The notes under the pieces are model-generated. The model saw nothing but the letters and a program-made list of their open reading frames with translations, had not been told where the DNA came from and did not search any database. Position numbers and translations under genes: made by a program. This document shows positions 24,128 through 63,612 of a stretch of DNA of 64,000 nucleotides, one piece after another. The stretch comes from Verrucomicrobium sp. GAS474 (lineage in GTDB: Bacteria > Verrucomicrobiota > Verrucomicrobiia > Methylacidiphilales > GAS474), in contig NZ_LT629781.1 of assembly GCF_900105685.1 (NCBI RefSeq), positions 930,001 through 994,000 of the forward strand, in the 5' to 3' direction. Within the stretch, counting starts at the first letter, position 1; each line of letters opens with the position of its first letter.

Positions 24128-24739
24128 TTAATCTTTTTCGGTCGAGGTCGCCGGAGCCGTCGGCGGCAGCCGGGGCAGCTCGATCGGCTTCTTCGCCCAA
24201 TAGAAGAGGAACGACCCGATGAAGGCGCAGAGCGTCCCAATGACGAAGAGCATCCCGGGGGCGAACCACGTGCTGACGATCATCGGGAAGGCACTCCGCT
24301 CCGGGTGGGCCCGGTCGTAGACGACGAGGTCGGTCGTCGGGAGGCCCTCCTCGTCGATGAGGGGGTAGAGCGGCTTCAGCTGGCTCCCGACGGGGGCGCG
24401 GACCTCGAAGGAACTCCCCTGCCCGTCCGCAAAGCGGAATTCGTTCCAGAACGTGTAGCTCCGGTCGCGGGGCTCGAGCGCGGCGGTCACCTGCCGGTCG
24501 CTCTCCAGCACCTGGTCGGGGAGGCCCTCCTTCGTCTTCACGACGCGGACCGCCTCGGCCCGCGCCCGCTCCCCGAAGAGGAGGAGCCGCAGCGGCTCGG
24601 CGAACTGGGAGAAGCCGAGCCCCATCAGGAGGAGCCCCGCCGCGATCATCCCGAGCTTCGCCCGCGCGTACCCGGGCACATAGACCCCGGGCGCGGGGGT
24701 CGGGGCGTCTTGCGGAGTCAATGGATTCAACGGATTCAT
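24128..24739 (-). CDS. Two-TM membrane protein of unknown function (DUF3592-like)
   Basis: 203 residues. A Pro-rich N-terminus, one hydrophobic segment at about 30-52 (LGMIAAGLLLMGLGFSQF), a ~100-residue soluble domain (VTAALEPRDRSYTFWNEFRF, YPLIDEEGLPTTDLVVYD), and a second hydrophobic segment at about 157-183 (FAPGMLFVIGTLCAFIGSFL), then a Pro-rich tail. This layout resembles DUF3592 proteins, but I cannot confirm membership. The ATG overlaps the stop of the MFS gene (ATGA), so it is the last gene of the operon that starts at 35352 and may be a partner of the MFS carrier. Confidence 0.65.
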   Translation of the reverse strand: MNPLNPLTPQDAPTPAPGVYVPGYARAKLGMIAAGLLLMGLGFSQFAEPLRLLLFGERARAEAVRVVKTKEGLPDQVLESDRQVTAALEPRDRSYTFWNEFRFADGQGSSFEVRAPVGSQLKPLYPLIDEEGLPTTDLVVYDRAHPERSAFPMIVSTWFAPGMLFVIGTLCAFIGSFLFYWAKKPIELPRLPPTAPATSTEKD

Positions 24740-27309
24740 GATGCGTGTTCCTCCTCGACGCCCCGCTTGCGGATGCCTCCCCGGCGCTCGATCCCCCGGA
24801 AGACGAAGGTCATCGTGATGCCGAGGGAGCTGAGCAGGAACATCCAGATATAGCCGCTCATGTAATCATACCGCATCGGCGCGTAGGCCGAGGCGAGGCG
24901 GGGGCGGACGAGGGTCAGCTTCTGCGTCGCCGCCGCTTCCTCGAGCCGGTCGTAGAAGCGGCGGGACTGGGCGAGGAGCCCGGGCTGGGCCAGCGCCCCC
25001 GTGCCGATCCCCGCCGCCAGGCGGCGGCCGATGGCGTCGTCGACATTAGGGACGGCCTCCCTCTCCTGGAGGACGGAGGAGGAGGGCAGGAGGGTCGTCA
25101 CCTCGATCGTCCGCGCCTCGGTCCCGGGATCGATCCGCAAATGACCGCCGCCGTTGCCACCGGCTGCCCCAAGCCGGAGGGACCGCCCGATCGCATCGAG
25201 CTTCCGCCGGGGATTCCCGACCTCGTGGAAGAGGGAGAGGAACGGGTTGACGATCCGGGTGATCGGGGAGACGTAGGTGTCGGTCGGGGTCTCGACCGTC
25301 GCCACGCGGAGGGTCAGGGCCGTCTGGTGGGAGAAGGTGAACGGCGGCATGCCAGCGCCCGCGGGGCCGAAGAGGCCGGGAGCCCGCGCCCCGGCGACGC
25401 GGAGGAGGGCCTCCTCGGCCCGCCGCGCCAGCGCCATGGCCTCGGCTTCGGACCCCTTCCGGGAACCGACGCTCAGCGCGAAGGCGTAGCCGTTCTCCCG
25501 CTTCACGGGGCGGAGGTCGATCGTCTCCGGCAGCTCCCGGCGGAGGTCGCGGGCCATCGCCTCCACCACCTCGCCCTCGGGCCGCCTGCCGACGGGAACC
25601 TCGACGAGGAGGGCGTCGGCCGTCGCCGCCTCGCGGAGGGCCTCGCCCTCCTCCAGGATCCGTCCGGCGAGGACCCGATCGACCTCGCCCCGGAAGGCCT
25701 CGCACCGGGCGGCGAGGGTCGCGTCGATCGCGCCGATCTCCGCCGCCAGCCGGTCGGTCTCGGCCCGCCGCCCGGCGGCGTCGGCCTCGATCCGTCCGGC
25801 CTTGCCGAGGTCCCCCTTCCCTCGGAGGACCGCCGCGCGATCCTCGAGCATCTTCCGCGAGGCGAGCCGCTCCGACTGCGTCGCGGCGAGCTTCTTCCTC
25901 TCCTCGTCGAGGGCGGCGCTCGCCTTGTCGCGGCACCGGATCTCCCACGTCCGGCCCCGGTCGGTGAAGGTGCCGTTCGCCTGCCAGGCCTCGGCGGTGA
26001 TCTCCGCCGGGGGGACGGGAGCGCCGTCCGAGGGCCGCGTCCAGGCCGTGCCCGGGGCGCGGAGGGAGGCGAGCAGCTCGGGCTTCGTCACCTCCTCCCG
26101 CAGCACCACCCGGGTCATCTCCCCGGCGGGCGGCTGGAAGAGCGTGGCATAACCCCAGACGAAGAGGCCGACGCCGTTCAGCGTGAGGAGGCCGGTGAGC
26201 CGCCCGACCATCCCCGCCCCCGCCGCGTAGGTGCCGAGCTTGTTCCGCCGGACGTAGTCGTAGACCAGCGGGACGTAGACCATCATCATCAGGAGGCCGA
26301 CGATGCACCCGCTCTCGCCGAAGACGATGATCTCGACGAGGGAGGGATGCTTGTCCGGGAGGACGAAATTGACGTAGCAGTAATAGCAGACGTTGATCGA
26401 AAGGGAGATGAAGATGAGGGTCTGATAGGCCTTCATCCGGTTGAGCTTGTCGGCGAAGAGGGTGAGGAGGCCGATGATGAAGATGTTGATCACGCCGCCG
26501 ACGGCGATGTTGATCCCGAGCTGCTGCTTCGTGTAGCTCCACTGGTCGGTGTAGAGGAGGTTGCCGAGCGGCCCGAGGCCGGCGTTGAGCGCCGAGATGC
26601 TGAAGACGAGGAGGTAGATCGGCCGCAACTCGGGATCGAGGAGGCCGCGGACGAAGGTCCGGGGGGTGATCCTCTCCCCGCGCAGCGGGCTCTTCTGGTC
26701 GAGTTCCTTCACCCCGAGCGTGATGAGGAGGAAGAGGACCGCCAGCAGCAGCGCCGCCGACCAGTAGATCACCCGCTCCCCGAAGAGGGGGACGCCCCAC
26801 ATGAAGCGGACGTCGTCGAACCGCCCGAGGGCGATGAAGTAGAAGACGATCCCGGCGAGGTTCTGGAACCACGACATCATCCCCGTCGCCCGGCCCCGCT
26901 CGTGGGGCGGGATGATCTCGAGCTTCAGCGCGTCGAGGGTCGCGTTCAGGTCGCTCGAGAGGCTGTAGAACATGTAGACGGCGAGGAGGGCCCAGAAATT
27001 CGGCATCAGCGGCATCAGGACCAGCGCAGTGACGATGCCGGTCCACGAGGCGATGACGAACGGCTTCCGCCGCCCGAAGCGGGTCCAGATCCGGTCCGAG
27101 GTGAAGCTGACGAGGGGGTAGGTGACGAGGGAGATGAAGCTCGGCAGGCTGAGGATGAAGGTGAGGCCCGCCGGGTTCTCGACGAATTTCTTCAGCGAGA
27201 AGAGGAAGGCGGCCCCCGCCGCCGAGCCGACGAAGGCGAAGGCGCCCCAGGGGAGGACGGCGAAGAAGATCCAGCGGGCGGGGACTTCCTTTTTGCAGGT
27301 GACGATCAT
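24736..27309 (-). CDS. MFS/GPH-type sugar transporter with a ~415-residue soluble insert
   Basis: 857 residues. Residues 1-395 resemble an MFS sugar carrier of the glycoside-pentoside-hexuronide or SLC45 kind: about eleven hydrophobic helices, SDRIWTRFGRRKPFV at the cytoplasmic 2-3 loop, and ERGRATGMMSWFQN. Residues ~396-815 are hydrophilic, with a heptad-like stretch rich in Glu, Arg, Ala and Leu (about 455-560: coiled-coil candidate), then a mixed alpha/beta region. A last helix (YIWMFLLSSLGITMTFVF) closes the protein, so the insert lies between the penultimate and last helices. Ordinary MFS carriers have about 450 residues. Sixth gene of the seven-gene operon, 25 bp after Verru_Chthon protein A. 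Confidence 0.8.
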   Translation of the reverse strand: MIVTCKKEVPARWIFFAVLPWGAFAFVGSAAGAAFLFSLKKFVENPAGLTFILSLPSFISLVTYPLVSFTSDRIWTRFGRRKPFVIASWTGIVTALVLMPLMPNFWALLAVYMFYSLSSDLNATLDALKLEIIPPHERGRATGMMSWFQNLAGIVFYFIALGRFDDVRFMWGVPLFGERVIYWSAALLLAVLFLLITLGVKELDQKSPLRGERITPRTFVRGLLDPELRPIYLLVFSISALNAGLGPLGNLLYTDQWSYTKQQLGINIAVGGVINIFIIGLLTLFADKLNRMKAYQTLIFISLSINVCYYCYVNFVLPDKHPSLVEIIVFGESGCIVGLLMMMVYVPLVYDYVRRNKLGTYAAGAGMVGRLTGLLTLNGVGLFVWGYATLFQPPAGEMTRVVLREEVTKPELLASLRAPGTAWTRPSDGAPVPPAEITAEAWQANGTFTDRGRTWEIRCRDKASAALDEERKKLAATQSERLASRKMLEDRAAVLRGKGDLGKAGRIEADAAGRRAETDRLAAEIGAIDATLAARCEAFRGEVDRVLAGRILEEGEALREAATADALLVEVPVGRRPEGEVVEAMARDLRRELPETIDLRPVKRENGYAFALSVGSRKGSEAEAMALARRAEEALLRVAGARAPGLFGPAGAGMPPFTFSHQTALTLRVATVETPTDTYVSPITRIVNPFLSLFHEVGNPRRKLDAIGRSLRLGAAGGNGGGHLRIDPGTEARTIEVTTLLPSSSVLQEREAVPNVDDAIGRRLAAGIGTGALAQPGLLAQSRRFYDRLEEAAATQKLTLVRPRLASAYAPMRYDYMSGYIWMFLLSSLGITMTFVFRGIERRGGIRKRGVEEEHAS

Positions 27310-27334
27310 GGGAAGACGGCAGGAAGACCCGGGC

Positions 27335-30300
27335 TCAAGGCGCGAACTGGTGGTCGTGGACGATGCGCCACCGGTAGAAGGTGTCGAGGGAGGGGGTGGC
27401 GTTCGGGTTCGTGCCGTAGTCGGGGATCGAGGCGTTGTTCGCGTCGATGAACCGCTCGATCGTCGCCGAACCCCGGTATTCGCCGGTGATCTGGTCGACG
27501 CCCTCCCGCCACGTCCCCGGAAGGGAGCCGACGTTCTTCTTCAGCGACTGGGCGCGGAAGTGGACGGTGTAGGTGTTCGACTTCGTCGTGAGGCGGGGAT
27601 AGAGGGTCGTGTAGATCCGCTCCCGCAGGTTTTCCCCCGTGATCTGGTTCGCCGTCCAGAAGGTCGTCTTCATGAGGTTCACCGTCGTCGCGGGGATCGT
27701 GACGGGGACGATGTGGAGGTCGCAGATCTCGCTCGCCGAGCGGAAGATGTCGCCCCCCTGGAACTTCGCCTTGAACTGGGTCAGCGTCTCGGTCGCGTCG
27801 ATCGGGTAGTCGATGGTTTGCGCCCCCATCGTGCTGTTCCCGCCCTTCGCCTTGTAGAGGCCGGTGTTCGGGACGGCGGTGACCAGCTCCGATTTCAGGA
27901 GGGCGTTGATCCCGGTCGACCGCTCGATGTAGGTGAAGGGGAGGATCTGGTAGTTCATGTTGATCTTCCCGGCGGTCGAGAAGCGGTCGCTGATCGCGTA
28001 GGGATCGACGACCGGCATCCAGAAGAGGTCGAGGAGGAGGTGGTCGGTCGGCGAGGTCGCGCCGAAGTGGGTCGGCTGCGGGCGGAAGAGGAGGGTCCGC
28101 CACGGCACGTTCGCCTTCACCCCCGTCGGGAGGGAGCCGAACATCCCGGGCGAGGGCATCTGCCGGTTGGGGAAGGCGAAGGTCGAGGTCACCGGGTCGG
28201 AGGCGTTCCACGGCGTGTCGAAGTAGGGGACATTCGCGCCGCCGAGCGCCTTGGTCCCCTCGTCGGGCTTGTTGATGTAGGGACCGTCGGGAATGTAGGG
28301 GAAGCCGCTGTCGTAGTCGCCGGTCGACTCGGGCGTGTTCGCCACGGTCGCCCCGGCGGGGATGTCGGGCGAGACGTTGGCCCAGAAGTAGGAGGAGGCG
28401 GGGATCGTGCTGAAATAGCTCCCCCACGAGTTCTGCGTCCGGCCCGGATCGAAACCCTGGCTGCTGTAGGTCGAGTAGGCCTCGAAGAGGTTGGCCGCCC
28501 ACTTCGTCGTCGTCGTGTCGTAGTAGGGATGCTTCGCGAAGACCGTCGTCGGGACGTTCTGCTGCGCCGCCACGAGGCGGAAATCGCCGTGGGCGGGCTG
28601 GACCGACCGCACGACGTCGTAGTTGTCGACCAGGGGGGAACCGCAGCTCGGCGTGGCGTAATTCCCGGGCGAATAGCCGCTCCCGTAGGAGAGCAGGAGC
28701 CGCTTGTTCTCGTTCCACGCCTTGCCCCCGAAGCCCCACCAGTAGCTCATGTCGGGCGCGCCGAATTTCTGGTCGACCAGCTTCGGGATCGGGAAGCCCC
28801 CGGCGGGATCGCTGCTCGGCAGGTTGATGTTCAGCGTCTGGAGGACGGGGCCCCCCGCGCCCTCGGTGATCGTCACCGTGAGCTGGCCGCCGGTGAAGGC
28901 CATGAGGCCGTTCGCGGGAACCGTGACCTTGATGTGGGAACTCACGAAGGGATAGAGCGGCGCGCCGTTGTCGAAGTTGCGCCAGGTGGCGTGTCCTCCG
29001 ACCGTCAGCCCGTTGTTCACGCTCGCCGTCGTCACGTTGTAGCGTTGGTCGTAGGAATCGGCGGTGAAGAGCTGCTGGCCGTTCAGCCTGAGCGCCAGGA
29101 GTCCTTTGATGTTCACCTGCATGTCGGGGATCATCGAGGTGAAGCCGAGCATCGGGGAGAAGAAGTTCGGGATCAGGATCGCCTGGACATAGCGTTCCCC
29201 GGCCACGGCGGGAGTGAGGGCGGGGGAGGCATAGGGCGTCGTGTTGGCCGGGACGGTCGTGACGGACGGATCGTTGCTGCACGCGAAGCCGATGGTGAGG
29301 GCCGAGAGGGTGTAGAAGCGGCCGAAGCCCTGCGTCGGGATCCCGCCCGCCGTGGTGTACTGCGTCGGCGCGACCCACCCGTGGCCCGAGCCGGGGAGCG
29401 GGGTCGAGGCGGGGGTGAACTGCCCCCCGGTGGCGAGGTTCAGGTCGTAGAGGTTCGTCGTCCGGATGTAGTCGAAGATCTCGGTGAGGATCTGGTCGCG
29501 GTCGGCCCCGTACTTCGCCGAGAAGAGGCCGCCGAAGCCGGGGACGGCCTGGCTGGTCAGCGCCCGCAGGTAGTTGTAGAGGGTCCCGTTCCGCGCCAGG
29601 CCGATGTCGTTCGTCGGGCTGTCGTAGCGCTGCCGCTGGAAGTAGTAGGGATAGGAGGCCGCGCCGTTGCCGGTCGAGGAACAGAACGCGATGAGCTTGT
29701 CGAGGGAGGTGACCTTCCCGGTGGCGAGCCCCGCGTAGAGGGGCCAGCAGGCGATGCGGGGGAGGTTGAAGAGGTTGAGCTCGGGCGCGCGGCTCGAGGC
29801 CGTGGCGAAGAAATGGGCCTGGGCGATGTCGCTCGCCTTCAGCTTCGGCGTGGCGGTCCGCGACGAGTCGAAGGAGGGATCGAAGGCGAGCTCGTCGACC
29901 GAGGCGTAGAGCCGCTGGGATTTCTTCGCGACCGGCCCGGTGGCGACCGTCGTCGCCCCGCTCGATCCGCCGGGGGAGACGCGGGGGGTGAGGGCGTAGA
30001 TGTTGTCGGCGCTGAGGGTGGTGAAGACCGAGGAGAGGCAGGTCGTGGCGGGATGGCCGGGGTAACGCTGGTATTCGCCCTGCGCGGGCTGGTACTGGCC
30101 GAGGTAGCGCTGGAAGTTGCTGTAGAAATGGGGCGTGTTCCAGAACATCCCCTCGGAGGCCGTGTTGATGTTGACCTTGCAGGTCTCGTCGTCGGTCCAG
30201 AAGGCGATCCGCCCGACGACGGGGTTCGCCGCCGTCGCCCCGGCGACGGTCGCCTCGTTGCCGCTCCCGGCGGCGGCGACGAAGGTCCCGTCCTGGAGGA

Positions 30301-30871
30301 CGTAGAGCCACCGGACCGGCATCGGCACCGGCTGCCAGGAGGAGGCCCCGGGGGCCGCGCCGAGGGAATAGCCCTCGGGCTTCAGGTTCCCCCCGGTGCC
30401 GACGTTCCCGTCGAGGATCGGGTAGACCTTCCCGGTCCGGGTCTGGACGGGGGCGTTGAGGTCGGTCCAGAGGGCGGGGTTGTCCTTCCAGCTCGCCGCC
30501 GGGGCGTCGGCCGAGACGCCGCCGGTAATCGAGACCTTCGTGTCGATCATGTTCGCCGCCGAATAGAGCTTGTAGGCGTTGCGGAGCGTCCCGGCGTTGT
30601 CGTAGGTCCGCACCATCCCCGGCTGGGAGACCCACGCGACGCTCGTCCCCTGCCCGGTGGCGAGGTTGATCTGCCCCTGGACGAGGCCGACGGCGGTGTA
30701 GGCGAGGTTCCGGGCCGAGACCGAGGCCCCGTAGCCCGAGGCGCTCTGCAGGGCCGAGGTCGACTTCATGAGGAAGCCGACCGAGAGCCCGACGATGAGG
30801 ACGAGCATGCCGAGGACCAGCAGCAGGGCGAAGCCGGAGCGGCGGGGGCGGAGGAGGGAGTTCGTTTTCAT
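27335..30871 (-). CDS. Verru_Chthon cassette protein A (cassette 1)
   Basis: 1178 residues. The N-terminus has a short basic leader and one hydrophobic helix (GFALLLVLGMLVLIVGLSVG), then a very long extracytoplasmic part rich in Thr/Ser/Asn/Tyr, including RIAFWTDDETCKVNINTAS. This matches protein A of the four-gene cassette described in Verrucomicrobia and related genomes, whose smaller partners carry prepilin-type N-termini. Function is not established; by analogy with GspK-like tip proteins it may sit on a pseudopilus, which is inference. Its ATG overlaps the stop of protein D (ATGA). Length is similar to the second copy at 58057, though the sequences are strongly diverged. Confidence 0.85.
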   Translation of the reverse strand: MKTNSLLRPRRSGFALLLVLGMLVLIVGLSVGFLMKSTSALQSASGYGASVSARNLAYTAVGLVQGQINLATGQGTSVAWVSQPGMVRTYDNAGTLRNAYKLYSAANMIDTKVSITGGVSADAPAASWKDNPALWTDLNAPVQTRTGKVYPILDGNVGTGGNLKPEGYSLGAAPGASSWQPVPMPVRWLYVLQDGTFVAAAGSGNEATVAGATAANPVVGRIAFWTDDETCKVNINTASEGMFWNTPHFYSNFQRYLGQYQPAQGEYQRYPGHPATTCLSSVFTTLSADNIYALTPRVSPGGSSGATTVATGPVAKKSQRLYASVDELAFDPSFDSSRTATPKLKASDIAQAHFFATASSRAPELNLFNLPRIACWPLYAGLATGKVTSLDKLIAFCSSTGNGAASYPYYFQRQRYDSPTNDIGLARNGTLYNYLRALTSQAVPGFGGLFSAKYGADRDQILTEIFDYIRTTNLYDLNLATGGQFTPASTPLPGSGHGWVAPTQYTTAGGIPTQGFGRFYTLSALTIGFACSNDPSVTTVPANTTPYASPALTPAVAGERYVQAILIPNFFSPMLGFTSMIPDMQVNIKGLLALRLNGQQLFTADSYDQRYNVTTASVNNGLTVGGHATWRNFDNGAPLYPFVSSHIKVTVPANGLMAFTGGQLTVTITEGAGGPVLQTLNINLPSSDPAGGFPIPKLVDQKFGAPDMSYWWGFGGKAWNENKRLLLSYGSGYSPGNYATPSCGSPLVDNYDVVRSVQPAHGDFRLVAAQQNVPTTVFAKHPYYDTTTTKWAANLFEAYSTYSSQGFDPGRTQNSWGSYFSTIPASSYFWANVSPDIPAGATVANTPESTGDYDSGFPYIPDGPYINKPDEGTKALGGANVPYFDTPWNASDPVTSTFAFPNRQMPSPGMFGSLPTGVKANVPWRTLLFRPQPTHFGATSPTDHLLLDLFWMPVVDPYAISDRFSTAGKINMNYQILPFTYIERSTGINALLKSELVTAVPNTGLYKAKGGNSTMGAQTIDYPIDATETLTQFKAKFQGGDIFRSASEICDLHIVPVTIPATTVNLMKTTFWTANQITGENLRERIYTTLYPRLTTKSNTYTVHFRAQSLKKNVGSLPGTWREGVDQITGEYRGSATIERFIDANNASIPDYGTNPNATPSLDTFYRWRIVHDHQFAP

Positions 30872-31473
30872 GGCCGGTAGATGGCGACGTTGCCGCTCAG
30901 CGGGCTGACCTGGAGGGTGCAGTAATTGGCGGGCGGGGAGCCCTGCGCGTGGGCTTCCTGGAGGGTGACGTAGTTGTTCGCGTCGGTCACGGGGGCCGAG
31001 GCCGAGCCGGTGGGCCGGAAGCGGAAGCCCCGGTAGGAGGCGGCGATCCGGACGGGGAGCGTCGCCTGGCCGTTGACGGCGGTGTCGGAGGCGATGAGGG
31101 GGGAGAGGGGCTCGCTCATGATGATGCCCGAGGGGAGGAAGAGGGGCGGGCGGACGGGGGCGAAGGTGTCGCCGTTGTCCCCCGTCGTCACGCGCCAGAT
31201 CTGGACGGCGGTCCAGAGGCTGGCGATCCGGTAGAAGCGGACCTCGATCTCGCAGTTCCTCGTCATCGCCTCCTGCCGCGCGAGCGAGAGTTCCCCGGCG
31301 ACCGACTGCCCGGCGCGGTTCAGCGCGCTGCCGAGGATGAGCGTCGTCAGCGAGGGCATCGAGGCGACGGCGACGAGCGAGACGATGGCGAGGACGACGA
31401 GGACCTCGATCAGGCTGAAGCCGCGCGGGGAGGGGGGGAGGGAGTTCTTCATGCCACGTTTTTCTTTCTTCAT
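30868..31473 (-). CDS. Verru_Chthon cassette protein D (cassette 1), pseudopilin-like
   Basis: 201 residues with a prepilin-type N-terminus: basic leader ending SPRG, then FSLIEVLVVLAIVSLVAVAS with Glu at +5, cleaved and methylated by prepilin peptidase in type II/IV systems. The GspH-like body contains LSLARQEAMTRNCEIEVRFY. The start at 31473 has GGAG 5 nt upstream and overlaps the protein C stop (ATGA); ATG 31452 would shorten the leader. It is coupled at its end to protein A. Predicted inner-membrane pseudopilin subunit. Confidence 0.85.
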   Translation of the reverse strand: MKKEKRGMKNSLPPSPRGFSLIEVLVVLAIVSLVAVASMPSLTTLILGSALNRAGQSVAGELSLARQEAMTRNCEIEVRFYRIASLWTAVQIWRVTTGDNGDTFAPVRPPLFLPSGIIMSEPLSPLIASDTAVNGQATLPVRIAASYRGFRFRPTGSASAPVTDANNYVTLQEAHAQGSPPANYCTLQVSPLSGNVAIYRP

Positions 31474-48595: not shown

Positions 48596-48623
48596 GAAAG
48601 AAACGGAAAGGCGAAATCGGAAA

Positions 48624-53605: not shown

Positions 53606-53618
53606 TGCGTTCGTTCGA

Positions 53619-55847: not shown

Positions 55848-55859
55848 GGACGGAGCGTA

Positions 55860-56858
55860 TCAGGAAATCAGCGACATCATCTCCTCGCGTACGCGGCCCT
55901 GGAGGGGCTCCCGCCGGAGGTAGCGGCCGAATTCCTCGACGGCCATCGCGCCGAGGCGGCGGCATTCGTTCCCGAGGGTCCCGGCGATGTGGGGGGTGAG
56001 GAGGACGTTCGGCAGCGAATAGAGGGGGGACTCGGGCGGCGCGGGCTCGTGGGCGGTGACGTCGAGGAGGGCGTAGAGGTCGGGGCGGCGGGCGAGGACC
56101 TCGATCATCTCGTCCTCGTTCACGACCGGGCCGCGCGCCGTGTTGATGAACGTCGCGCCCGCCTTCATCCGGGAAAAATGATGGCCCCGGATCATCCCCT
56201 CGGTCTCGGGGAGCCATGGCGCGTGGAGGGAGGCGACGTCGGCGACCTCGAAGAGTTCCTCCAGCGACACGAGCTCGACGCCGAGTTCCCGCGCGGCCTC
56301 GACGGAGAGGAAGGGATCGTAGGCGACGAGGCGGAGCTGGAAATGGCGGAGGAGGCCGATCAGGCGGCGCGCCACGGCCCCGACCCCGATCACGCCGACG
56401 ACGCTGCCGTAGATGCCGGAGAAGGGGCGGCGGATCATCCGGCGCGTGGCGCGGGCCTCGGCGGTGTGCCGCCAGAGCGACTTCAGGCTGAGGAGGACCT
56501 GGCCGAGGGTGAACTCGGCGACGGTGACGGCGAGGGCCGCGTTGGTCGAGCTGACGACGATCTCCCGCCGCCAGAGGGCGTCGGTGACGAAGTGGCGGAC
56601 GCTCCCCGCCGCGTAGAAGATCGCCTTGAGGTTCGGCGCGGCGGCGAGGAAGGCCTCGTCGCAGCGGGGCATCCCCCAGCCGGAGAAGATCACCTCGGCC
56701 TCGGCCAGGGCCGGGTCGGCGGGATCGTCGGCGAGCATCCGGGCCGTCCGCAGGGGGATCGGGATCGCCGTCCAGCCCTCGAGCCGCTTCCGCTCCTCGG
56801 GTCCGTAGACCTGGTGCCAATATTCCTCCTCGAGGAGGAAGAGCGCCTTGATTTTCAT
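55860..56858 (-). CDS. D-isomer-specific 2-hydroxyacid dehydrogenase family protein
   Basis: 332 residues. The NAD-binding motif VVGVIGVGAVARRLIGLLRH has a GxGxxA pattern. The catalytic triad region shows INTARGPVVNEDEM (Arg), DVTAHEPAPPESPLY (Glu) and LLTPHIAGT (His), as in phosphoglycerate or hydroxypyruvate dehydrogenases. Such proteins beside sugar-acid catabolism reduce 2-keto acids or oxidise hydroxy acids. The start at 56858 is chosen because homology begins with MKIKALFLL; an ATG at 56924 extends into the regulatory region. First gene of the nine-gene operon ending at 39484 and divergent from the LacI gene, whose operator should also control it. Confidence 0.88.
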   Translation of the reverse strand: MKIKALFLLEEEYWHQVYGPEERKRLEGWTAIPIPLRTARMLADDPADPALAEAEVIFSGWGMPRCDEAFLAAAPNLKAIFYAAGSVRHFVTDALWRREIVVSSTNAALAVTVAEFTLGQVLLSLKSLWRHTAEARATRRMIRRPFSGIYGSVVGVIGVGAVARRLIGLLRHFQLRLVAYDPFLSVEAARELGVELVSLEELFEVADVASLHAPWLPETEGMIRGHHFSRMKAGATFINTARGPVVNEDEMIEVLARRPDLYALLDVTAHEPAPPESPLYSLPNVLLTPHIAGTLGNECRRLGAMAVEEFGRYLRREPLQGRVREEMMSLIS

Positions 56859-56943: not shown

Positions 56944-56977
56944 TTGACACCAGCGGTACGACGTTCAAACATTTGAA
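56944..56977 (+). promoter_or_regulatory. lacI-type promoter with overlapping palindromic operator
   Basis: A consensus -35 TTGACA (56944-56949) is followed, 17 bp later, by AAACAT as -10. The perfect-arm palindrome TTCAAA-CA-TTTGAA (56964-56977) covers the -10 and ends 1 bp before the GTG start. Transcription would begin about at the start codon, giving a leaderless message and tight autorepression. The same 14 bp recur at 63599. Confidence 0.6.
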
Positions 56978-56978
56978 T

Positions 56979-58067
56979 GTGGCAACGCGCATCACCCTGA
57001 AGGACATCGCGGCGCGGGCCGGGGTCCATGTCTCGACGGTTTCCCTCGCCCTGCGAAACGACCCGCGCCTCCTCCCGGCGACGCGGGAACAGCTGCAGGC
57101 GCTGGCGCTCGAGATGGGCTATTCCCCCGACGCGATGATGTCGGCCCTCTGCGCCTACCGGAACGCCCGCCGCCCGGCCCCCCTCCAGAGCGAGATCGCC
57201 TACCTCGTCGACCTTCCGCTGGAGAAGAAGTACGCGAGCCACAAGCCGGTCTACGAGCTCGCCCGGGAGCGGGCGATGCGGCTGGGATACAACCTCGAGG
57301 TCTTCTGCCTCGGCCAGCGCGGGATGACGCTGGAGCGGCTGAAGTCGATCTGGCGGAGCCGGAACATCCGGGGCGTCCTCATCGCCCCGTGGGAGACGCC
57401 GGGGAAGGTCCTCGGCACCGGGGCCGACTGGAGCGACCTCGCCGTGATCGCCGTCGGCCACTCGGTCTCGGCGCCCGCCTTCCACCGCGCGATCTCCCAC
57501 CAGTCCCACAACATGAGCCATCACCTCGAGGCGCTGCGGCAGCGGGGATACCGGCGGATCGGCCTCCACCTGATGGACGCCGTCAACCTCCGCACCTCGG
57601 GCTTCTACCACGGCGCCTACCTCCACGACCAGGCGACCCACCCGGACAAACAGCCCCCGCGCCTCCTCACCGAAGTGATGCCGAGCGCCGCGACGCTGAG
57701 GAAATGGATCCGCGCGGAGCGCCTCGACTGCGTCATCTCCTACAACGAGCAGCGCGACTGCCTCGAGGCGGCGGGGGTGCGGCTCCCCGGCGACCTCGGC
57801 TTCTCCCTCCTCGACCGGAGCCCGTTCAATCCGATCGACCGGGCCGACTCCGCGGGCTTCGACCACAAGATCGAGCTCTGCGTCACCCACGCCATCGAAT
57901 CGCTCATCACGCTGATCCACCAGCAGGTGAACGGCATCTCGCCCAATCCCCGCTACTTCATGGTGCAGGGGGAATTCTATCCGGGGGCGACGGTGCGGCC
58001 CCTGCCCGAACCGGCCATGAAGACGGCGACGGCGGCGGCGACGGAAAATACGCCCGTTACTCGTTGA
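56979..58067 (+). CDS. LacI family transcriptional regulator
   Basis: 362 residues. The N-terminal helix-turn-helix and hinge are RITLKDIAARAGVHVSTVSL, ALRNDPRLLPATREQLQALA and LEMGYSPDAMMSAL. A periplasmic-binding-protein-like effector domain follows (IRGVLIAPWETP; YRRIGLHLMDAVNLRTSGFY; DCVISYNEQRDCLEAAGVRL; FSLLDRSPFNPIDRADSAGF). The start is GTG 56979, since homology begins there; TTG 56973 is an alternative inside the operator. The open frame continues far upstream antisense to other genes, and I reject it. It is divergent from the polysaccharide operon and converges on cassette protein A with an 11-bp overlap of the coding ends. Confidence 0.88.
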   Translation: MATRITLKDIAARAGVHVSTVSLALRNDPRLLPATREQLQALALEMGYSPDAMMSALCAYRNARRPAPLQSEIAYLVDLPLEKKYASHKPVYELARERAMRLGYNLEVFCLGQRGMTLERLKSIWRSRNIRGVLIAPWETPGKVLGTGADWSDLAVIAVGHSVSAPAFHRAISHQSHNMSHHLEALRQRGYRRIGLHLMDAVNLRTSGFYHGAYLHDQATHPDKQPPRLLTEVMPSAATLRKWIRAERLDCVISYNEQRDCLEAAGVRLPGDLGFSLLDRSPFNPIDRADSAGFDHKIELCVTHAIESLITLIHQQVNGISPNPRYFMVQGEFYPGATVRPLPEPAMKTATAAATENTPVTR

Positions 58068-61000
58068 CCGGCTCGAGCTGCTGGTCGAGGACTTTCCCCG
58101 TGTAGCGGTCGATGGCGATCGAGAGCCAGTACCGCTTCTCCCCCTCGACGACGAAATCGGCGAGGGAGGACGGCGCGGTCCCCGTCGGGAAGCGGCCGAC
58201 CTGGGCGACCACGTCGACGAGGAGGTTCCACGTCCGGGTCTGGGTTCCCGAGGCGAGGGCGCGGGCGACGGCCTCCCGCTGGTACTTGATCGGCGTCGTC
58301 GCGGGGGGATAGGCCGCCGTCAGCGCGGGGGAGCTCATGAAGAGGGGGAGCTGCGACGGATTGACCGGCATCGCCGTCCCCGCCGAGAGCGAGGCGGCCG
58401 ACCCGAACGCGTAGGCGTGATAGGCCGTGGCGATCGCCGCGCCCTGCGCGGTGGTCAGCGGGAGCGTCCCGTCGTAGGAGAGGGCCGCGCCGCCGAGCAG
58501 GGACTGCTGCACCGCGCTCTGCGCGCTGTTCAGCGCGACGCGGCCCGCGACTACCGGCGGCTCGTCGGAGACGGAGAAGAGATCGAGGAGCGCCCCGTCG
58601 CCGCTCGTGTCGTCGAAGAAGCTGAGGGTCTTCCACGGGCTCCCCCGGAAGACGTAGCCGAGTTCGCCGACGGCGCGGTAGGGCCGGTGGAGGATGAGGG
58701 GGCGGCCCGTCGCGGCGGTCGTCGTCGCGATCCCCGCGAAGAAATTCGCCGCCGCGCCGAGCCACCCGTCGGCGGGCCGTACCGTACCGTCGGGATCGGC
58801 GACGTTGGCGGCGTAGGCCGCGGCGGTCCACCCGGTCTTCACCCCGAGCAGCCACGCGCCGGGGAACATGTTGGCCCCGGCGATCTGCGCGCCGGTGCCG
58901 AAGGGCGGGTAGCTGGTGAGGCCGTTGAAGGGGGTCGCGGGACTCGCGCCGCCGCCCGAGATCGGCGAGACGACGAGGGGGGAGACGCGGTTCGAGTTGA
59001 GGCCGCCGAAGCGGGTGGTGCGCGGGTCGATCTTGAACCAGCCGGAGCTGTTCAGGAGGTCGTTGCGGACGACGGCGGGGCCGGCCGCCGCCGAGGTCAT
59101 CGACGGGGAGAAGTCGGCGGTCCCGCCGAGGCCCGTTCCCCCCGCCGCCGTCCGCAGGGCGTCGTTCCCGGCGAGGGTGTCGTAGACGATCCAGTTCCCG
59201 GAGGCGTCCTGGTATTCCATGACGAGGAGGAGGTTGTTGAAGACGGTGCGGGGGATCCAGCCGATGGTCGGATAGACGGCGGGAAGCCCGGTGTAGGTGT
59301 AGAAGAGGAAGGCGTTGATGTCGGAATAGGCCGAGGAGACGAGGCCCGAGCCGAGGAGCGTGGAGAGGGTCGTGGCGACGCCCGCCTCGCCGTTCCGCAC
59401 CGGCTTCATCGCCGACCGGTAGTTCTCGAAGGAGGCGGCGGGAATGACGATCGGGGGGCGGACGCTGAGATCGAGGAGGAGACCGGTGTGGGAGAGCGGG
59501 CCGCCGACCGCCGACCCCGAGGTGGCGCTGGTGAGGGTCCCGCTGGCGATGCGGATCCGGATGTTGGCCGGGCCCGAGGTCGCCGCGATCGCCCCGACGT
59601 GGGGATTGAGGAGCTCCGGGACGAGGACGAGGTGGAGGTAGTCGATCCGCTCCGTGGTGGCGGTGTCGTAGGAGCGGTTCGAGAAGTAGCTCGAGATCAC
59701 GCCGTAGAGGTAGGGCAGGTCCTTCACGCCGTGGACGACGAGGGTCGCCGCTCCCGTCGCGGGGAGGCTCCCCGTGAAGGCGATCGGCGTCGGGAAGTTG
59801 TCGGGCCCGGCGCAGTCGATGATGTTGGCCCCGATCTGGAAGGCCTGGAGGTCCTTGTTCGCCTCCCAGTTCCGCTGGTCGATCTGGGCGAGCGTCGTGT
59901 TCGTGCTCGCCTTCCCGATCGACCCGTCGACGAGGCCCGCCTTCAGCAGCTCGAAGAAATTCGGCTCCCGGTTTTCCGCCGCGGCCTGGGCCAGGGTCTC
60001 GACCTGCTGGAGCGCCGTCCCCGAGGCCCCCGCGTAATCCCAGCGGAAGAGGGTGGGGTTCCAGACCAGCCCGAAGCACGCCTGGATCGCGGCGGCCGAG
60101 ATCCCCGCCCGCGCTCCCGACGCCGTGATCCAGCCGACCTTCGCGAGGGAAAAGCGGCGCTGGAGGAGCGGATCGCCCGGGAGGACGGGGTAGGTCGAGG
60201 CGAAGCCGGTATCGTCGTAATGGGTGACGGTCTTCGCCTGGGGAAAGCGGGCGGCGTTGAGGTCGACGTTCGCACCGGCGACGACGGCGGGGGTCCACGA
60301 AGGGCCGTTGAAGGAGCGGGAGAAATGGGTCAGCGCGCCCGCCTGCGCGGGGGTCAGCTTCGCGACCGAATTCTGGGCGGCCAGGAGGAGATCGTGGCGG
60401 GAGAAGAAGACGTTGTCCCCCGCGACCGTGGCGAGGTGGCCCGAGGCCGAGGCGGCGAGGGCGACCGTGTTGGTCGTCCCGGTCGTGCGGGGCAGTCCGG
60501 CGGCCCATTCGGAGAAGGTGTTCGCGTCGCCCCCGGTCGCGCCGTTGCGCCAGGCGGCGAGGTTGGCGATGCCGAGGGCGGTGCCGATGTCGGCGAAGGC
60601 GGCCGACGACTTGAACGGGGCCGCCGCCGCCGCCGCCGCGGGATAGCCCGCGACATTCGCGTCGGGCAGGCCGCCGGTATCGTAGACGGTGTAGGCGAAG
60701 CGGCCGAGCACATAGCCCGCCGCCGCTGGATTCGCGGCCTCGGCGAGGGAGGGGGTCTGGACGCCGTGCCGCGTGACGTAGGCCCAGGTGGGGAGAACAT
60801 CGTTGGCGCCAAGGCCGGGCCCGCCCGAGCCGAACCACCGCGCGGCGGAGATGAGGCGGCCGTTGCGGCTCGCCGTGCCGATCGAGACGGCGGAGCCGAG
60901 CTTCCGTCCCGAGGGGCTCGGGTCGAGGGCGCCGCCGGGGGTCGAGACCTTGACGAGGTTCGTCGTCGAGGTCCCGACGATCCCGACCTTCTTCGGCACG

Positions 61001-61317
61001 GCGTCGGCGGGAGTCGAGGGGCGGTAGAAGACGGGGTAGGAGGCGTTGCCGCCGTTCGCCGACTGCGAGTAGGCGGTGTCGGCGATCTCCTCGCGGAGTT
61101 CGCCGGTGACGATCTCGAGCGAGGCGCGGGCGAGCTGGTCGGCCTTCAGGACGTTCGTGTTGGAATAGGAGATCTGCCGGTTGAGGAGGGAATTGGAGAA
61201 GAAGGCGAGGACGAGGATCGTGAGGAGGACGACGGCGCAGAGCGTGACCAGCAGGGCGACCCCGCGGGCGCTGCGGGGAGGAGGAAGAAAGCGGGGCGTG
61301 GAGGCGCGCGTTCTCAC
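58057..61317 (-). CDS. Verru_Chthon cassette protein A (cassette 2)
   Basis: 1086 residues. Basic leader (RTRASTPRFLPPPRSARG), hydrophobic helix VALLVTLCAVVLLTILVLAF, then a long extracytoplasmic Ser/Thr/Ala/Asn-rich body with YVLGRFAYTVYDTGGLPDAN and SFFDDTSGDGALLDLFSVSD, both typical of cassette protein A. Start GTG 61317 overlaps the stop of protein C (GTGA); the frame further upstream is a shadow of C. Only the general layout, not the sequence, is strongly shared with cassette 1 protein A. Last gene of cassette 2; it runs into the 3' end of lacI. Confidence 0.84.
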   Translation of the reverse strand: MRTRASTPRFLPPPRSARGVALLVTLCAVVLLTILVLAFFSNSLLNRQISYSNTNVLKADQLARASLEIVTGELREEIADTAYSQSANGGNASYPVFYRPSTPADAVPKKVGIVGTSTTNLVKVSTPGGALDPSPSGRKLGSAVSIGTASRNGRLISAARWFGSGGPGLGANDVLPTWAYVTRHGVQTPSLAEAANPAAAGYVLGRFAYTVYDTGGLPDANVAGYPAAAAAAAPFKSSAAFADIGTALGIANLAAWRNGATGGDANTFSEWAAGLPRTTGTTNTVALAASASGHLATVAGDNVFFSRHDLLLAAQNSVAKLTPAQAGALTHFSRSFNGPSWTPAVVAGANVDLNAARFPQAKTVTHYDDTGFASTYPVLPGDPLLQRRFSLAKVGWITASGARAGISAAAIQACFGLVWNPTLFRWDYAGASGTALQQVETLAQAAAENREPNFFELLKAGLVDGSIGKASTNTTLAQIDQRNWEANKDLQAFQIGANIIDCAGPDNFPTPIAFTGSLPATGAATLVVHGVKDLPYLYGVISSYFSNRSYDTATTERIDYLHLVLVPELLNPHVGAIAATSGPANIRIRIASGTLTSATSGSAVGGPLSHTGLLLDLSVRPPIVIPAASFENYRSAMKPVRNGEAGVATTLSTLLGSGLVSSAYSDINAFLFYTYTGLPAVYPTIGWIPRTVFNNLLLVMEYQDASGNWIVYDTLAGNDALRTAAGGTGLGGTADFSPSMTSAAAGPAVVRNDLLNSSGWFKIDPRTTRFGGLNSNRVSPLVVSPISGGGASPATPFNGLTSYPPFGTGAQIAGANMFPGAWLLGVKTGWTAAAYAANVADPDGTVRPADGWLGAAANFFAGIATTTAATGRPLILHRPYRAVGELGYVFRGSPWKTLSFFDDTSGDGALLDLFSVSDEPPVVAGRVALNSAQSAVQQSLLGGAALSYDGTLPLTTAQGAAIATAYHAYAFGSAASLSAGTAMPVNPSQLPLFMSSPALTAAYPPATTPIKYQREAVARALASGTQTRTWNLLVDVVAQVGRFPTGTAPSSLADFVVEGEKRYWLSIAIDRYTGKVLDQQLEPVNE

Positions 61318-62264
61318 AGCCGGGAGGCGAAGGGAGTGACGGGGAAGAAATGCTGGAAGACGCGGAGCGATTGCCGCGCCGCCAGGGGGACTGATCCGGG
61401 CAGGGTCGTCGGAGACATCGCCTGCGCCTCCCAGGCGGCGACGGGAAGGACGTCGGTCGCGGGCACGCCGAAGGCGGAGCCGAGCGCGGTCGCCTGGTCG
61501 GCGTCGAGGAGGCGGAGGCTGGTGACATCGACGACGGCGACCCCGGCAACGAGGGCGGCGACCCGCGAGAGATCGACGACCTGGACCGAGGAGGTCCCGC
61601 GATAGGCGTAGGCCGTGCGGACGGGCGGGCTGTAGACGACCTGCCCCTGCGCCTTCGGCAACGTCGTGCCGTCCTGGAGGGTGACGGGTTGGTTGTCGGG
61701 GTAGAGTTGGAAACCGATGACGAGCCGGAGGACGCCGGGAGCGAGGACGTCGAAGTCGGCGGACTGCGGCAGGAGCGACGAGGGGAATCCCGCGCCGGAG
61801 AAGGAGAGCGGGAGGCCGAGGTCGGTGAGGCCGAAATAGCCGGTCATCGCCCACGGCACCGCCTTCCCGGCCCGGAGCAGGCAGGGACGGTTCTGGTTGT
61901 CGGCGTGGGCCGCGACCTCGTAGGCGAGGATCGAGATCCCCCGGTTCGCCGCCGAGCCGAGGCGCGACCCGGCGGCGGGGCTCCCCGAGACGAAGCGGAG
62001 GAGAGGCACCGCACCGAGGGCGGCATTCCGCGCCTCGAAGGGAACGTCGGGCCGCTTCACGAGCCCGGCGATGTCGCCCTCCAGGCAGCCGAAGACGAGG
62101 CGGGCCTGGGAGGCGGTGTCGACGAGCTGGTTGCTCAGCCGCGTCGTCCGCGAGGTCGCCCCCGTCATCTGCGCGATGATGAACCCGAGGAGCGTCAGGA
62201 GGACCATCGCGGGCAGGAGCTCGACGAGGGTGAAGGCCCGGGGATGGGTGGCCGGCTTTTTCAC
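61314..62264 (-). CDS. Verru_Chthon cassette protein C (cassette 2), pseudopilin-like
   Basis: 316 residues. Leader VKKPATHPRA, then FTLVELLPAMVLLTLLGFII with Glu at +5 and, unusually, Pro at +8; again Ala rather than Gly precedes Phe, as in cassette 1 protein C. Body: SQARLVFGCLEGDIAGLVKR, VLRLVIGFQLYPDNQPVTLQ and VVDVTSLRLLDADQATALGS. The start is GTG 62264, overlapping the protein B stop (GTGA). Predicted inner-membrane pseudopilin-like subunit. Confidence 0.84.
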   Translation of the reverse strand: MKKPATHPRAFTLVELLPAMVLLTLLGFIIAQMTGATSRTTRLSNQLVDTASQARLVFGCLEGDIAGLVKRPDVPFEARNAALGAVPLLRFVSGSPAAGSRLGSAANRGISILAYEVAAHADNQNRPCLLRAGKAVPWAMTGYFGLTDLGLPLSFSGAGFPSSLLPQSADFDVLAPGVLRLVIGFQLYPDNQPVTLQDGTTLPKAQGQVVYSPPVRTAYAYRGTSSVQVVDLSRVAALVAGVAVVDVTSLRLLDADQATALGSAFGVPATDVLPVAAWEAQAMSPTTLPGSVPLAARQSLRVFQHFFPVTPFASRL

Positions 62265-62809
62265 GGGGCGGGGAAGGAGACGTAACTCTCGGCGAAGCCC
62301 GAGACGTGGGTCGGCGAGGTCAGCAGGGCGGGGTCGGTCGCGGCCTGGGACGGCCAGCCGACGACGAGCCGCGCCTCGACCGGCGCGTGCGCTCCGGCGG
62401 CGGGGACCCGGGTGTAGAGGACCGAGACCTGGTAGGGCGAGGCGGGGAGCGCCGCGAGGTCGCGCGGCTGCTCCCGGTCGTCGAGGCCGGTGGAATAGCG
62501 CGAGGAGACGGTGTTCGTCGCGAGGCCGGTGTTCGGCACCACCCGTCCGTTGGCGTCGACCATGTAGGGGAGCGCGAGGCCGAAGTGGCGGGACTTCCCG
62601 CCGTTGGCCGCCGGATGGGTATTGCGGAGGTCGGCCTCGAGCTCGGTGAGGATGAAGACGGCGCGCGTCTCCTCGGACGAGATCCGGTTCGTCTTCAATC
62701 CCATCGGAAGGAGCGCCAGCGTCGAGAGGAGCGCGAAGGAGATCACCGCCAGCGCGATCACCACCTCGATGAGGCTGAAGCCGTCGCGGACCCGCTTCAC
62801 ACGCGCCAT
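62261..62809 (-). CDS. Verru_Chthon cassette protein B (cassette 2), pseudopilin-like
   Basis: 182 residues from ATG 62809: leader MARVKRVRDG, then FSLIEVVIALAVISFALLST with Glu at +5 and the GLKTN segment seen in protein B homologues. An alternative GTG at 62818 adds three residues; GGGAGG lies too close to the ATG to be an ideal ribosome site, so the choice is uncertain. The gene follows protein D by 12 bp and overlaps C. The order D-B-C-A differs from cassette 1 (B-C-D-A). Confidence 0.82.
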   Translation of the reverse strand: MARVKRVRDGFSLIEVVIALAVISFALLSTLALLPMGLKTNRISSEETRAVFILTELEADLRNTHPAANGGKSRHFGLALPYMVDANGRVVPNTGLATNTVSSRYSTGLDDREQPRDLAALPASPYQVSVLYTRVPAAGAHAPVEARLVVGWPSQAATDPALLTSPTHVSGFAESYVSFPAP

Positions 62810-62821: not shown

Positions 62822-63475
62822 TCAGAGGTTTTCCTTGCGGAGGACGGTGATCGCCCCCGTCATCCCGCCGACCCGGATGACGAAGGGATTCTTGCCGTCC
62901 ATCGGGGCCGGGCGGTCGAGCGCCACCTTGATGAACCGGGCCGGGGAATCGGTCTGGACGCGGGCGACGCCGGAGGGGCCGAACTGGATGCACGCGTTGA
63001 ACCGGACCGCGCCGAGCCCGTTCACCTGCCGGACGAAGTGGGGGATGTCGGTATCGCGGGGGAGCGTGTCCGAGGCCGTCCCGAGGGCGTCGTTCGCATG
63101 GAAGTTGTCGAGGACGAGGGGCCGGGTGACGTAGGGCCATTTCGCCGCCGTCGCCATCGCGCCGCCGTCGGCGGCGGCGAGGGTCCCGTCGTTCGAGTAG
63201 AGGCAGAGCACCACGAAGGAGGGGCCGCTGTTCCCCGAGGCCCGGGTGATCTCGCCGAAGCCGACCCGCACGTAGGTGCCGTTCGCCATCGCGTAGGCCC
63301 GCGCCTGCTCCAGGGTCCGGGAAAGATCGATGATCGCCTTGTTCACCGAGCCGGACCCCGAGAGCGCCGTCACCACCGGCCCGGAAAGCGCCATCATCGT
63401 CCCCATGATCGCGACGACGACCAGCAGCTCGACGAGCGAAAAGCCGCGCGGCGGTTTCGGGGAAAGAGGACGCAT
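62822..63475 (-). CDS. Verru_Chthon cassette protein D (cassette 2), pseudopilin-like
   Basis: 217 residues. Leader MRPLSPKPPRG, then FSLVELLVVVAIMGTMMALS with Gly before the cleavage site and Glu at +5, a textbook prepilin N-terminus. The GspH-like body contains LSRTLEQARAYAMANGTYVR and ends VIRVGGMTGAITVLRKENL. First gene of cassette 2. The upstream 260 bp carry the LacI-type palindrome (63599-63612) and a second inverted repeat, so the whole cassette is likely under regulated control. Confidence 0.85.
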   Translation of the reverse strand: MRPLSPKPPRGFSLVELLVVVAIMGTMMALSGPVVTALSGSGSVNKAIIDLSRTLEQARAYAMANGTYVRVGFGEITRASGNSGPSFVVLCLYSNDGTLAAADGGAMATAAKWPYVTRPLVLDNFHANDALGTASDTLPRDTDIPHFVRQVNGLGAVRFNACIQFGPSGVARVQTDSPARFIKVALDRPAPMDGKNPFVIRVGGMTGAITVLRKENL

Positions 63476-63552: not shown

Positions 63553-63567
63553 GTCATTCATGATGAC
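63553..63567. promoter_or_regulatory. Second inverted repeat upstream of cassette 2
   Basis: GTCAT-TCATG-ATGAC: 5-bp perfect arms, 78 bp upstream of the protein D start. Possible binding site for another regulator or part of the promoter; seen once only. Confidence 0.25.
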
Positions 63568-63598
63568 ACAGCCTCCCGCTTTGGCCATCCCCATTCTA

Positions 63599-63612
63599 TT
63601 CAAACATTTGAA
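63599..63612. promoter_or_regulatory. LacI-type operator upstream of Verru_Chthon cassette 2
   Basis: TTCAAACATTTGAA, identical in all 14 bp to the palindrome that abuts the lacI start (56964-56977), 124 bp upstream of protein D and 125 bp upstream of the divergent gene at 63737. Two exact copies of a 14-mer at two plausible promoters strongly suggest one regulator. Confidence 0.65.

Follow-up and report, generated by a model that had tools for sequence, protein, structure and literature searches.

What is a set of pilin-like genes doing inside loci for polysaccharide breakdown? The question is raised by a window of 64,000 nucleotides (the whole stretch of DNA analysed here, bases 930,001-994,000 of the closed 3.76 Mb genome of Verrucomicrobium sp. 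GAS474), which carries two cassettes of adjacent genes named A, B, C and D, with a diverged form of A (A') in the second. These genes are related to the Verru_Chthon families TIGR02600 (A), TIGR02598 (B), TIGR02599 (C) and TIGR02596 (D), whose NCBIfam titles state no function. A sequence-only reading of the window had proposed that each cassette builds a pseudopilus-like device in its own polysaccharide regulon. Our results suggest, with a probability of about 0.62, that the minor pilins of each cassette form the tip complex of a type 4 filament, a tip that is matched to one carbohydrate locus and relies on shared machinery.

Cassette proteins and the minor pilins of filament tips

In the accessible text of PMC10191384, the H, I, J and K minor pilins are described as a tip complex capped by a subunit that lacks the glutamate at position 5 (Glu5), and filament assembly starts with this complex. 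The comparison used the 80 best named cassette relatives, which come from Verrucomicrobiota-labelled records except for one metagenome-assembled genome labelled Bacteroidales, and many of which are cut by contig ends. The prepilin-type N-termini of B, C and D, already recognised in the sequence-only reading, are confirmed in these named loci, where 182 of 183 proteins with a recognisable cleavage site carry Glu5 (B 59/59, C 63/64, D 60/60). A and A' too have pilin-type N-termini, and Glu5 is found in none of 65 named-locus A proteins; in the genome under study it is found in none of 13 A and A' proteins and is missing from 1 of 16 C proteins, counts whose labels may include pilins of the type II secretion system (T2SS) operon. 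Proteins without a recognisable cleavage site were set aside (14 A and 2 C in the named loci; 2 A, 1 A' and 1 B in this genome). The pattern (Glu5 in B, C and D, none in A) is the one that the accessible text of PMC10191384 gives for the H-I-J-K tip, so that the order D-B-C-A reads as H-I-J-K. In agreement with this, D matches GspH models and B matches PilV/GspI models, and C would be the J subunit, from gene order and exclusion only. Of the device proposed earlier, the pilin-like nature therefore stands, but not the whole pseudopilus: the parts correspond to an H-I-J-K tip complex in which A would be a giant K. A complete pseudopilus was rejected, as the cassettes showed no gene for a major pilin, an ATPase, a platform protein or a secretin.

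The fold of A from cassette 1 was predicted with AlphaFold from an alignment with 62 relatives from the named records. The model (predicted local distance difference test, pLDDT, 86.3; predicted template modelling score, pTM, 0.89) starts with a helix of about 60 residues. Among 998 chains aligned with VIA, only two reach Z 5, namely GspK of Escherichia coli (3ci0_K; Z 10.0, 250/280 residues, 3.5 Å) and XcpX of Pseudomonas aeruginosa (6utu_C; Z 9.9, 237/261 residues, 3.9 Å), the third row being at 4.9. The N-terminal helix of A also aligns with GspK in hhalign (E 2.5e-8 over 61 columns), a region in which unrelated membrane helices can score.

For A', the body without its N-terminal helix matches a GspK profile of the clade (E 6.4e-5, probability 64, 85 columns), and the matched stretch ends in a G-x-(L/V)-x-L-N motif. 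Comparison of A with A' gave three weak collinear segments (E 0.006, 0.055 and 0.28), one of them within the variable insert of A described below, and a fourth out of line; whole profiles of the two aligned in hhalign over 68 N-terminal columns only. A search of PDB sequences with the A' profile returned no match at E ≤ 10. A' is read, from sequence, as a putative variant giant K; the GspK-like fold prediction covers A of cassette 1.

A is not evenly conserved. Among 63 sequences (from these alignments the A gene of cassette 8, which is split over two frames, was left out), mean pairwise identity falls to 25.5% at residues 495-775 and 26.6% at 776-900, against 39.1% at 13-80, 43.0% at 81-494 and 48.5% at 901-1178, and A' shows a similar pattern. 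The insert of A (residues 495-775), predicted alone, folds with a pLDDT of 85.2 as a beta-sandwich. With Foldseek nothing was obtained for it at E ≤ 0.001, the first rows, too weak to count, including a PA14 sugar-binding domain and glycoside hydrolase (GH) enzymes of GH2 and GH3. A viral-library search with A likewise gave nothing at E ≤ 0.001.

Number and gene order of the cassettes

The sequence-only reading had spoken of two parallel regulons, an understatement since the genome holds 16 further cassettes. The census, based on a TIGR02600 search and a profile built from A', with genes called by our own codon-usage script, gave 18 cassettes. Seven have A, in cassette 8 as a gene split over two frames, and the remaining 11, with cassette 2 among them, have A', which TIGR02600 matches only at the N-terminus or not at all. 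B, C and A or A' are present in all 18, forming a constant core, and D was found by profile or by eye in 14. The D-B-C-A order occurs in 6 of the 18. Among the 80 named loci, the commonest four-gene orders are B-C-D-A (20), B-C-A-D (13), A-B-C-D (8) and D-B-C-A (5). Chthoniobacter flavus, a cultured relative, is among the species with cassettes.

Several observations concern the cassettes themselves. The split A gene of cassette 8 lies at L026 about 8945-12235 (G000:C1:1230900-1233994); in a comparable locus of a sister genome of the same genus (G001), the A gene is intact (L168:7418-11242). A C-terminal remnant of A' (G000:C1:1844849-1845073) is located about 1 kb from cassette 11 and speaks for turnover of cassettes. 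In at least three variant cassettes, a protein of 224-246 amino acids with a secreted-looking N-terminus overlaps the end of A' (L024:13155-13829, L028:6144-6866, L179:9731-10471) and may be a fifth cassette component. Finally, two short A-like proteins of about 840-860 amino acids were noticed in relatives (L167:7250-9826 and L173:7683-10202): the one from G001 has no adjacent B, C or D, and the one from G010 has B-, C- and D-like neighbours as judged by eye.

Machinery available to the cassettes

Which machine would drive the tips? The genome contains one T2SS operon that we could see (L034), with its own G-H-I-J-K, the GspK of which matches PF21687. The fold match of A is also to GspK, and several enzymes near the cassettes have signal peptides as judged by eye, as for the GH-like gene of cassette 1. 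The cassettes could therefore be alternative GspH-I-J-K tips of this single T2SS, each of which would select the secreted enzymes of its own locus or its PEP-CTERM/PATR proteins as cargo and would not catch glycans; we regard this as rather unlikely, mainly from comparison with relatives. Indeed, G001 (95% complete, 9 contigs) keeps all four genes of a cassette, with A unbroken (L168), next to enzyme-like and PEP-CTERM-like genes, but shows neither a GspE ortholog (best identity 46-47%) nor a GspK match, and a cassette working with the T2SS only was rejected on this ground. Two of its three secretins are PilM-linked: G001 has an Amuc_1101-like PilM, an Amuc_1098-like secretin with another beside it, and an extension-type ATPase pair (L166), its third secretin being located in another gene set (L178).

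Parts of a type 4 filament were also found in the genome under study. Two adjacent extension-type ATPases are encoded with a platform protein (L164), two PilT-type ATPases score over their family cut-off (L165), and PilM lies with two secretins (L175), with best matches to Amuc_1101 and Amuc_1098 below the equivalog cut-offs. Together, these parts would form one pilus machine, and the L164 pair may be its ATPases, although both members score best with GspE models, below cut-off, which is compatible with the T2SS alternative.

Co-occurrence was examined in 30 genomes, the one under study counted, of which 20 have A or A' (A in 19, 17 of them over cut-off; A' in 16), one of these (G006) being counted because of two weak A matches (best 1.4e-7). 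One or both members of the second ATPase pair, the L164 type, are found in 19 of these 20 genomes and in 5 of the 10 others (Fisher 0.009), whereas a GspE-type ATPase of at least 58% identity is found in 14 of 20 and 4 of 10 (Fisher 0.14), both tests being uncorrected for kinship or completeness, with several genomes incomplete. Among the six cassette-bearing relatives without such a GspE, five are less than 90% complete and the sixth is G001. In the opposite direction, G004 has A and GspE but no match to the second pair. Taken together, co-occurrence and G001 lean towards the pilus machine, an argument weakened by kinship, incompleteness and G004, and we favour the pilus machine over the T2SS as the candidate motor of the tip complexes.

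Note that type 4 filament parts are doubled (L164, L165, L175, L177): the extension-type ATPases, the PilT-type ATPases and the secretins each come as two adjacent genes, and the secretin pair is also seen in G001. A lone GspD-like secretin (L176:7541-9724) lies at a distance of about 4.5 kb from cassette 17 and a long way from the T2SS operon, with a PEP-CTERM gene nearby.

Carbohydrate loci and regulation

Cassettes are associated with carbohydrate loci and PEP-CTERM genes far above chance in this genome, a pairing that the sequence-only reading had drawn from two examples. With all 18 cassettes included, 21 of the 29 PEP-CTERM genes are found at most 15 kb from a cassette, where 4.6 are expected, and none of 20,000 circular shifts gave a value as high; 16 of the 18 cassettes have a PEP-CTERM gene within this distance. 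The other neighbourhood tests compared 16 of the 18 cassettes with 19 random control windows (one more, 202528-222527, was left out because it overlaps a pilin pair). The PEP-CTERM motif scan was positive at 11 of 16 cassette loci against 1 of 19 controls, the controls being conservative since one of them (L052), some 6 kb away from cassette 16, itself contains two PEP-CTERM genes. It was also positive at 27 of the 80 named loci, and at 21 of the 49 that are at least 20 kb long. LacI-type regulators are the most recurrent neighbour in BLAST clustering, with 9 of 16 cassette loci against 2 of 19 random loci (Fisher 0.009) and 25 of the 74 named loci that have neighbouring genes. In tallies limited to the first 25 of 52, 62, 89 and 143 Pfam families, and thus not full counts, the leading families of 119 cassette-flanking proteins are the major facilitator superfamily (MFS), LacI/periplasmic-binding, 2-hydroxyacid dehydrogenase and PATR, followed by many GH, carbohydrate-binding module (CBM) and esterase families, while those of 147 control proteins are ABC transporters, response regulators and housekeeping families; GH57 occurs in two of the control proteins and tannase in one.

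At cassette 1, the earlier description of one operon running from a GH-A enzyme to an MFS carrier agrees with coordinates, strand and gaps (Table 1). The order in this apparent operon, all on the minus strand, is GH-like enzyme, B, C, D, A, MFS carrier and a 203-amino-acid protein, with gaps of 13, 24, −4, −4, 25 and −4 bp from the first gene to the last, and the ROK-family regulator gene lies on the same strand 537 bp from the next gene. By its family matches, cassette 1 is a canonical Verru_Chthon set: the adjacent A, B and D exceed the NCBIfam cut-offs (957, 66 and 97 bits, with cut-offs of 332, 51 and 70), and C is just below its own (230 versus 256.5 bits) though its match is full-length.

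Cassette 2 lies below all four cut-offs with N-terminal matches only (D 37.8, B 36.8, C 19.0 and A' 34.3 bits) and is thus a diverged variant rather than a canonical member. The LacI gene is convergent with it, and beyond lies the lyase/fucosidase/rhamnosidase operon said to be under LacI control, which does contain nine genes separated by 2-58 bp. Their Pfam matches at E ≤ 0.01 are 2-hydroxyacid dehydrogenase, an alginate-lyase-like protein, a protein with a weak PATR match, one that combines CBM4_9, PEP-CTERM and a weak PATR match, a CBM4_9 protein, an MFS carrier, alpha-L-fucosidase, a GDSL lipase and alpha-L-rhamnosidase. PEP-CTERM proteins are encoded near both cassettes, as had been stated.

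The exact 14-bp palindrome reported for cassette 2 and this operon is an identical 14-mer, TTCAAACATTTGAA, at both promoters, but the palindrome is imperfect: two 6-bp arms, inverted with respect to each other, flank a CA centre, and 12 of the 14 bases are symmetric. Exactly two copies occur in the 3.76 Mb genome, and the one at 56964 is about 105 bp upstream of the nine-gene operon; shuffles of the window gave a mean of 0.01 with two mismatches allowed. In a scan limited to the perfect 6-2-6 form, inverted repeats shared between promoters were found at 2 of 16 cassette loci against 0 of 19 controls. As a second example, near-identical repeats precede cassette 16 and a cellulase-family gene and adjoin a regulator with GntR and periplasmic-binding domains. 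The operator-like repeats support co-regulation with enzyme genes, more strictly for cassette 2 than for cassette 16, and both cassettes are probably induced together with the neighbouring enzymes, as far as promoter sequences can tell.

Table 1. Features of the two cassette loci, in positions of the 64,000-nucleotide window
Feature	Position	Strand	Basis
Cassette 1 A, predicted giant GspK-like tip pilin without Glu5	27335..30871	-	TIGR02600 957 bits; AlphaFold 2 (AF2) model; VIA
Variable beta-sandwich insert of A, residues 495-775	28547..29389	-	Identity profile; separate fold prediction
Cassette 1 B, GspI/PilV-like minor pilin with Glu5	32448..32942	-	TIGR02598 66 bits; PilV model 5.1e-6
Cassette 1 C, minor pilin with Glu5, GspJ position	31470..32423	-	TIGR02599 230 bits, full length
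Cassette 1 D, GspH-like minor pilin with Glu5	30868..31473	-	TIGR02596 97 bits; GspH model 9.6e-7
Cassette 2 A', putative variant giant K, no Glu5	58057..61317	-	N-terminus: TIGR02600 6.5e-9, NF037980 (GspK) 0.0015, both below cut-off
Cassette 2 B, GspI/PilV-like, Glu5	62261..62800	-	TIGR02598 4e-9, below cut-off; PilV 2.6e-6; GspI 6.7e-5
Cassette 2 C, GspJ position, Glu5	61314..62264	-	TIGR02599 N-terminus 6.5e-4, below cut-off
Cassette 2 D, GspH-like, Glu5	62822..63475	-	TIGR02596 2e-9, below cut-off; GspH 2.5e-7
TTCAAACATTTGAA, operator-like repeat, about 125 bp upstream of cassette 2	63599..63612	.	
TTCAAACATTTGAA, operator-like repeat, LacI/lyase-operon divergent promoter	56964..56977	.	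Ends just before LacI start codon
LacI-family regulator, between cassette 2 and lyase operon	56979..58067	+	PF00356 5.1e-11
Nine-gene lyase/fucosidase/rhamnosidase operon	39484..56858	-	Pfam E ≤ 0.01; gaps 2-58 bp
PEP-CTERM proteins near cassette 2	48624-51317; 51359-53599	-	
ROK-family transcriptional regulator, upstream of cassette-1 operon	35875..37170	-	PF00480 E 1.6e-6; HTH_24 E 1.1e-7
GH-A-like enzyme, first operon gene	32956..35337	-	PF00150 E 6.3e-4, below Pfam cut-off; signal peptide by eye
MFS carrier	24736..27309	-	PF07690 E 1.4e-17
203-amino-acid protein, last operon gene	24128..24739	-	None at E ≤ 0.01 in Pfam or NCBIfam
PEP-CTERM protein near cassette 1	22428..23282	+	PF07589

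These linkages bear on whether the cassettes merely co-cluster with carbohydrate loci in variable genome regions while the tips serve general adhesion. PEP-CTERM and enzyme genes are themselves clustered and no shared repeat was found at 14 of the 16 loci, as such an explanation would have it. It fits poorly, however, with the locus-specific repeats that cassettes 2 and 16 have in common with enzyme genes and with the same-strand series that join cassette 1 to GH-like and MFS genes, cassette 9 to two PEP-CTERM genes and cassette 18 to a gene for a BNR-repeat protein and an MFS gene, and we hold it to be clearly improbable. That A is instead a periplasmic or inner-membrane scaffold for PEP-CTERM/exosortase sorting, and not a filament subunit, could be thought from the concentration of PEP-CTERM genes near cassettes but is hardly credible given the GspK-like fold of A, the pilin-type B, C and D, one relative (G024) with 17 A matches but without PEP-CTERM proteins at E ≤ 0.003, and the reverse, PEP-CTERM without A or A', in all five genomes of the f4 family among the 30.

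Proposed model and its significance

The dedicated tip complex that we propose would work as follows. A polysaccharide signal would release the local regulator, so that the tip set is produced along with enzymes, carrier and surface proteins. B, C and A would form the tip trimer as I, J and K subunits, with D as the H subunit below, and this trimer would prime a filament on existing machinery, as the cassette would have no motor of its own and its tip would be loaded on filaments of the shared machinery. A would be an oversized K whose GspK-like core carries the large, fast-varying beta-sandwich; shown outside, this insert would bind a glycan or else surface or secreted proteins from its own locus, and extension and retraction would move the bound cargo across the outer membrane. 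The cell would thus fit a different tip for each carbohydrate. A more specific version, in which Verrucomicrobiota would equip one pilus machine with Amuc_1098/1101-like parts, as need arises, with one of many locus-specific H-I-J-K tips, the variable domain of each giant K recognising its own polysaccharide and the regulated tips replacing the SusD-like glycan-binding proteins of Bacteroidota, is put forward tentatively, the odds being somewhat against it.

Several results weigh against the proposed tip complex. For A, Foldseek alone gave no match to the model at E ≤ 0.001, perhaps because the core is split by the large insertion. The Pfam T2SSK models (PF21687/PF03934) matched none of two A and four A' proteins at E ≤ 1, although the GspK of the T2SS operon, used as control, matches PF21687 at 2.2e-10. 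Moreover, a GspK profile gave nothing against the body of A (best E 0.075), so that the case for A relies on predicted fold, N-terminal helix and missing Glu5. No lectin or CBM fold could be recognised in the insert, for which the best VIA score was Z 4.6 and none of 997 chains reached Z 5. At the level of loci, neither profiles nor visual inspection revealed a D in four cassettes of this genome; the perfect 6-2-6 scan found shared repeats at only 2 of 16 loci; and an obligatory partnership with PEP-CTERM proteins was rejected because of G024.

One of the closest known counterparts is the GspH-I-J-K set of the T2SS (XcpU-V-W-X; 3ci0, 6utu), which the cassettes resemble in their small adjacent genes, the H-I-J-K order of six cassettes, the Glu5 pattern, the predicted fold of A and the constant core of B, C and A. 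In contrast to this set, A and A' have about 1060-1410 amino acids as called (328 for GspK of the same genome) and a large variable beta-sandwich, and the cassettes occur in 18 copies beside carbohydrate genes, without motor or secretin and without a Pfam T2SSK match. With respect to the Verru_Chthon families (TIGR02596/02598/02599/02600), cassette 1 fits, whereas cassette 2 and the ten others carry the diverged A'.

Tip pilins with additional domains are described in Streptococcus sanguinis, in which, according to the accessible text of PMC9934059, PilC is a glycan-binding modular tip pilin; the modules of PilB and PilC are C-terminal vWA or lectin domains (PMC8179133, PMC9934059, accessible text). 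A shares with them an extra domain on a tip pilin, with glycan binding shown for PilC and proposed for A; unlike them, its module is inserted in the K core and matches no known fold convincingly. The modular-pilin survey of PMC8179133, which as described in its accessible text relied on an N-terminal signature plus a known domain, could miss A because A has no Glu5 and no domain signature was found in its insert. Pilin-like genes in a polysaccharide locus are also known from Verruconatronum alginivorum (Opitutales), whose alginate cluster has a PulG-like pseudopilin gene with 67 homologs in the genome, the pseudopilin being among the genes over-expressed on alginate (PMC13274419, accessible text), and we liken it to the cassettes by description only.

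The PilM and secretins of this genome and of G001 match best those of the Akkermansia-type pilus machine (Amuc_1098 secretin, Amuc_1101 PilM-like; PMC4960237, as far as its accessible text goes), which differs in that two secretins stand side by side here, and its link to the cassettes is a putative one. Compared with Sus-type loci, the loci studied here likewise unite regulator, enzymes, surface proteins and carrier, but with MFS carriers and a pilin tip set, and no SusC or SusD family match was found among 20 window proteins (Pfam, E ≤ 0.01). The cassettes may have a Sus-like role in capture. A search of the genome for PF07596 (SBP_bac_10) gave no match, and neither did the control genomes. 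Mucin uptake in Akkermansia reportedly involves pilus genes, in keeping with the proposed role of the tips.

Tip complexes and modular pilins are thus already known, and what is new is the proposed multi-copy, locus-dedicated tip set with a giant K. In the full-text literature searched, a scope mostly outside subscription journals, no account of the cassette as a tip complex was found and the name 'Verru_Chthon' is absent. Reading A as a giant GspK would turn the Verru_Chthon cassette into a concrete machine part. If this is true, these polysaccharide degraders have a principle of glycan handling unlike Sus, and recognition at filament tips could be studied across a natural series of many copies that share one core and differ in their inserts.

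Additional observations on neighbouring genes

Large proteins of 1400-2000 amino acids, autotransporter-like by eye, adjoin three cassettes (L020:11909-17959, L025:5-4294 and L029:15108-19319). In addition, large proteins that look secreted form a family (L029:4073-6898 and its BLAST cluster) that recurs at 4 cassette loci of this genome and 6 named loci, and one member carries a C-terminal CBM9-like domain with no recognised catalytic domain.

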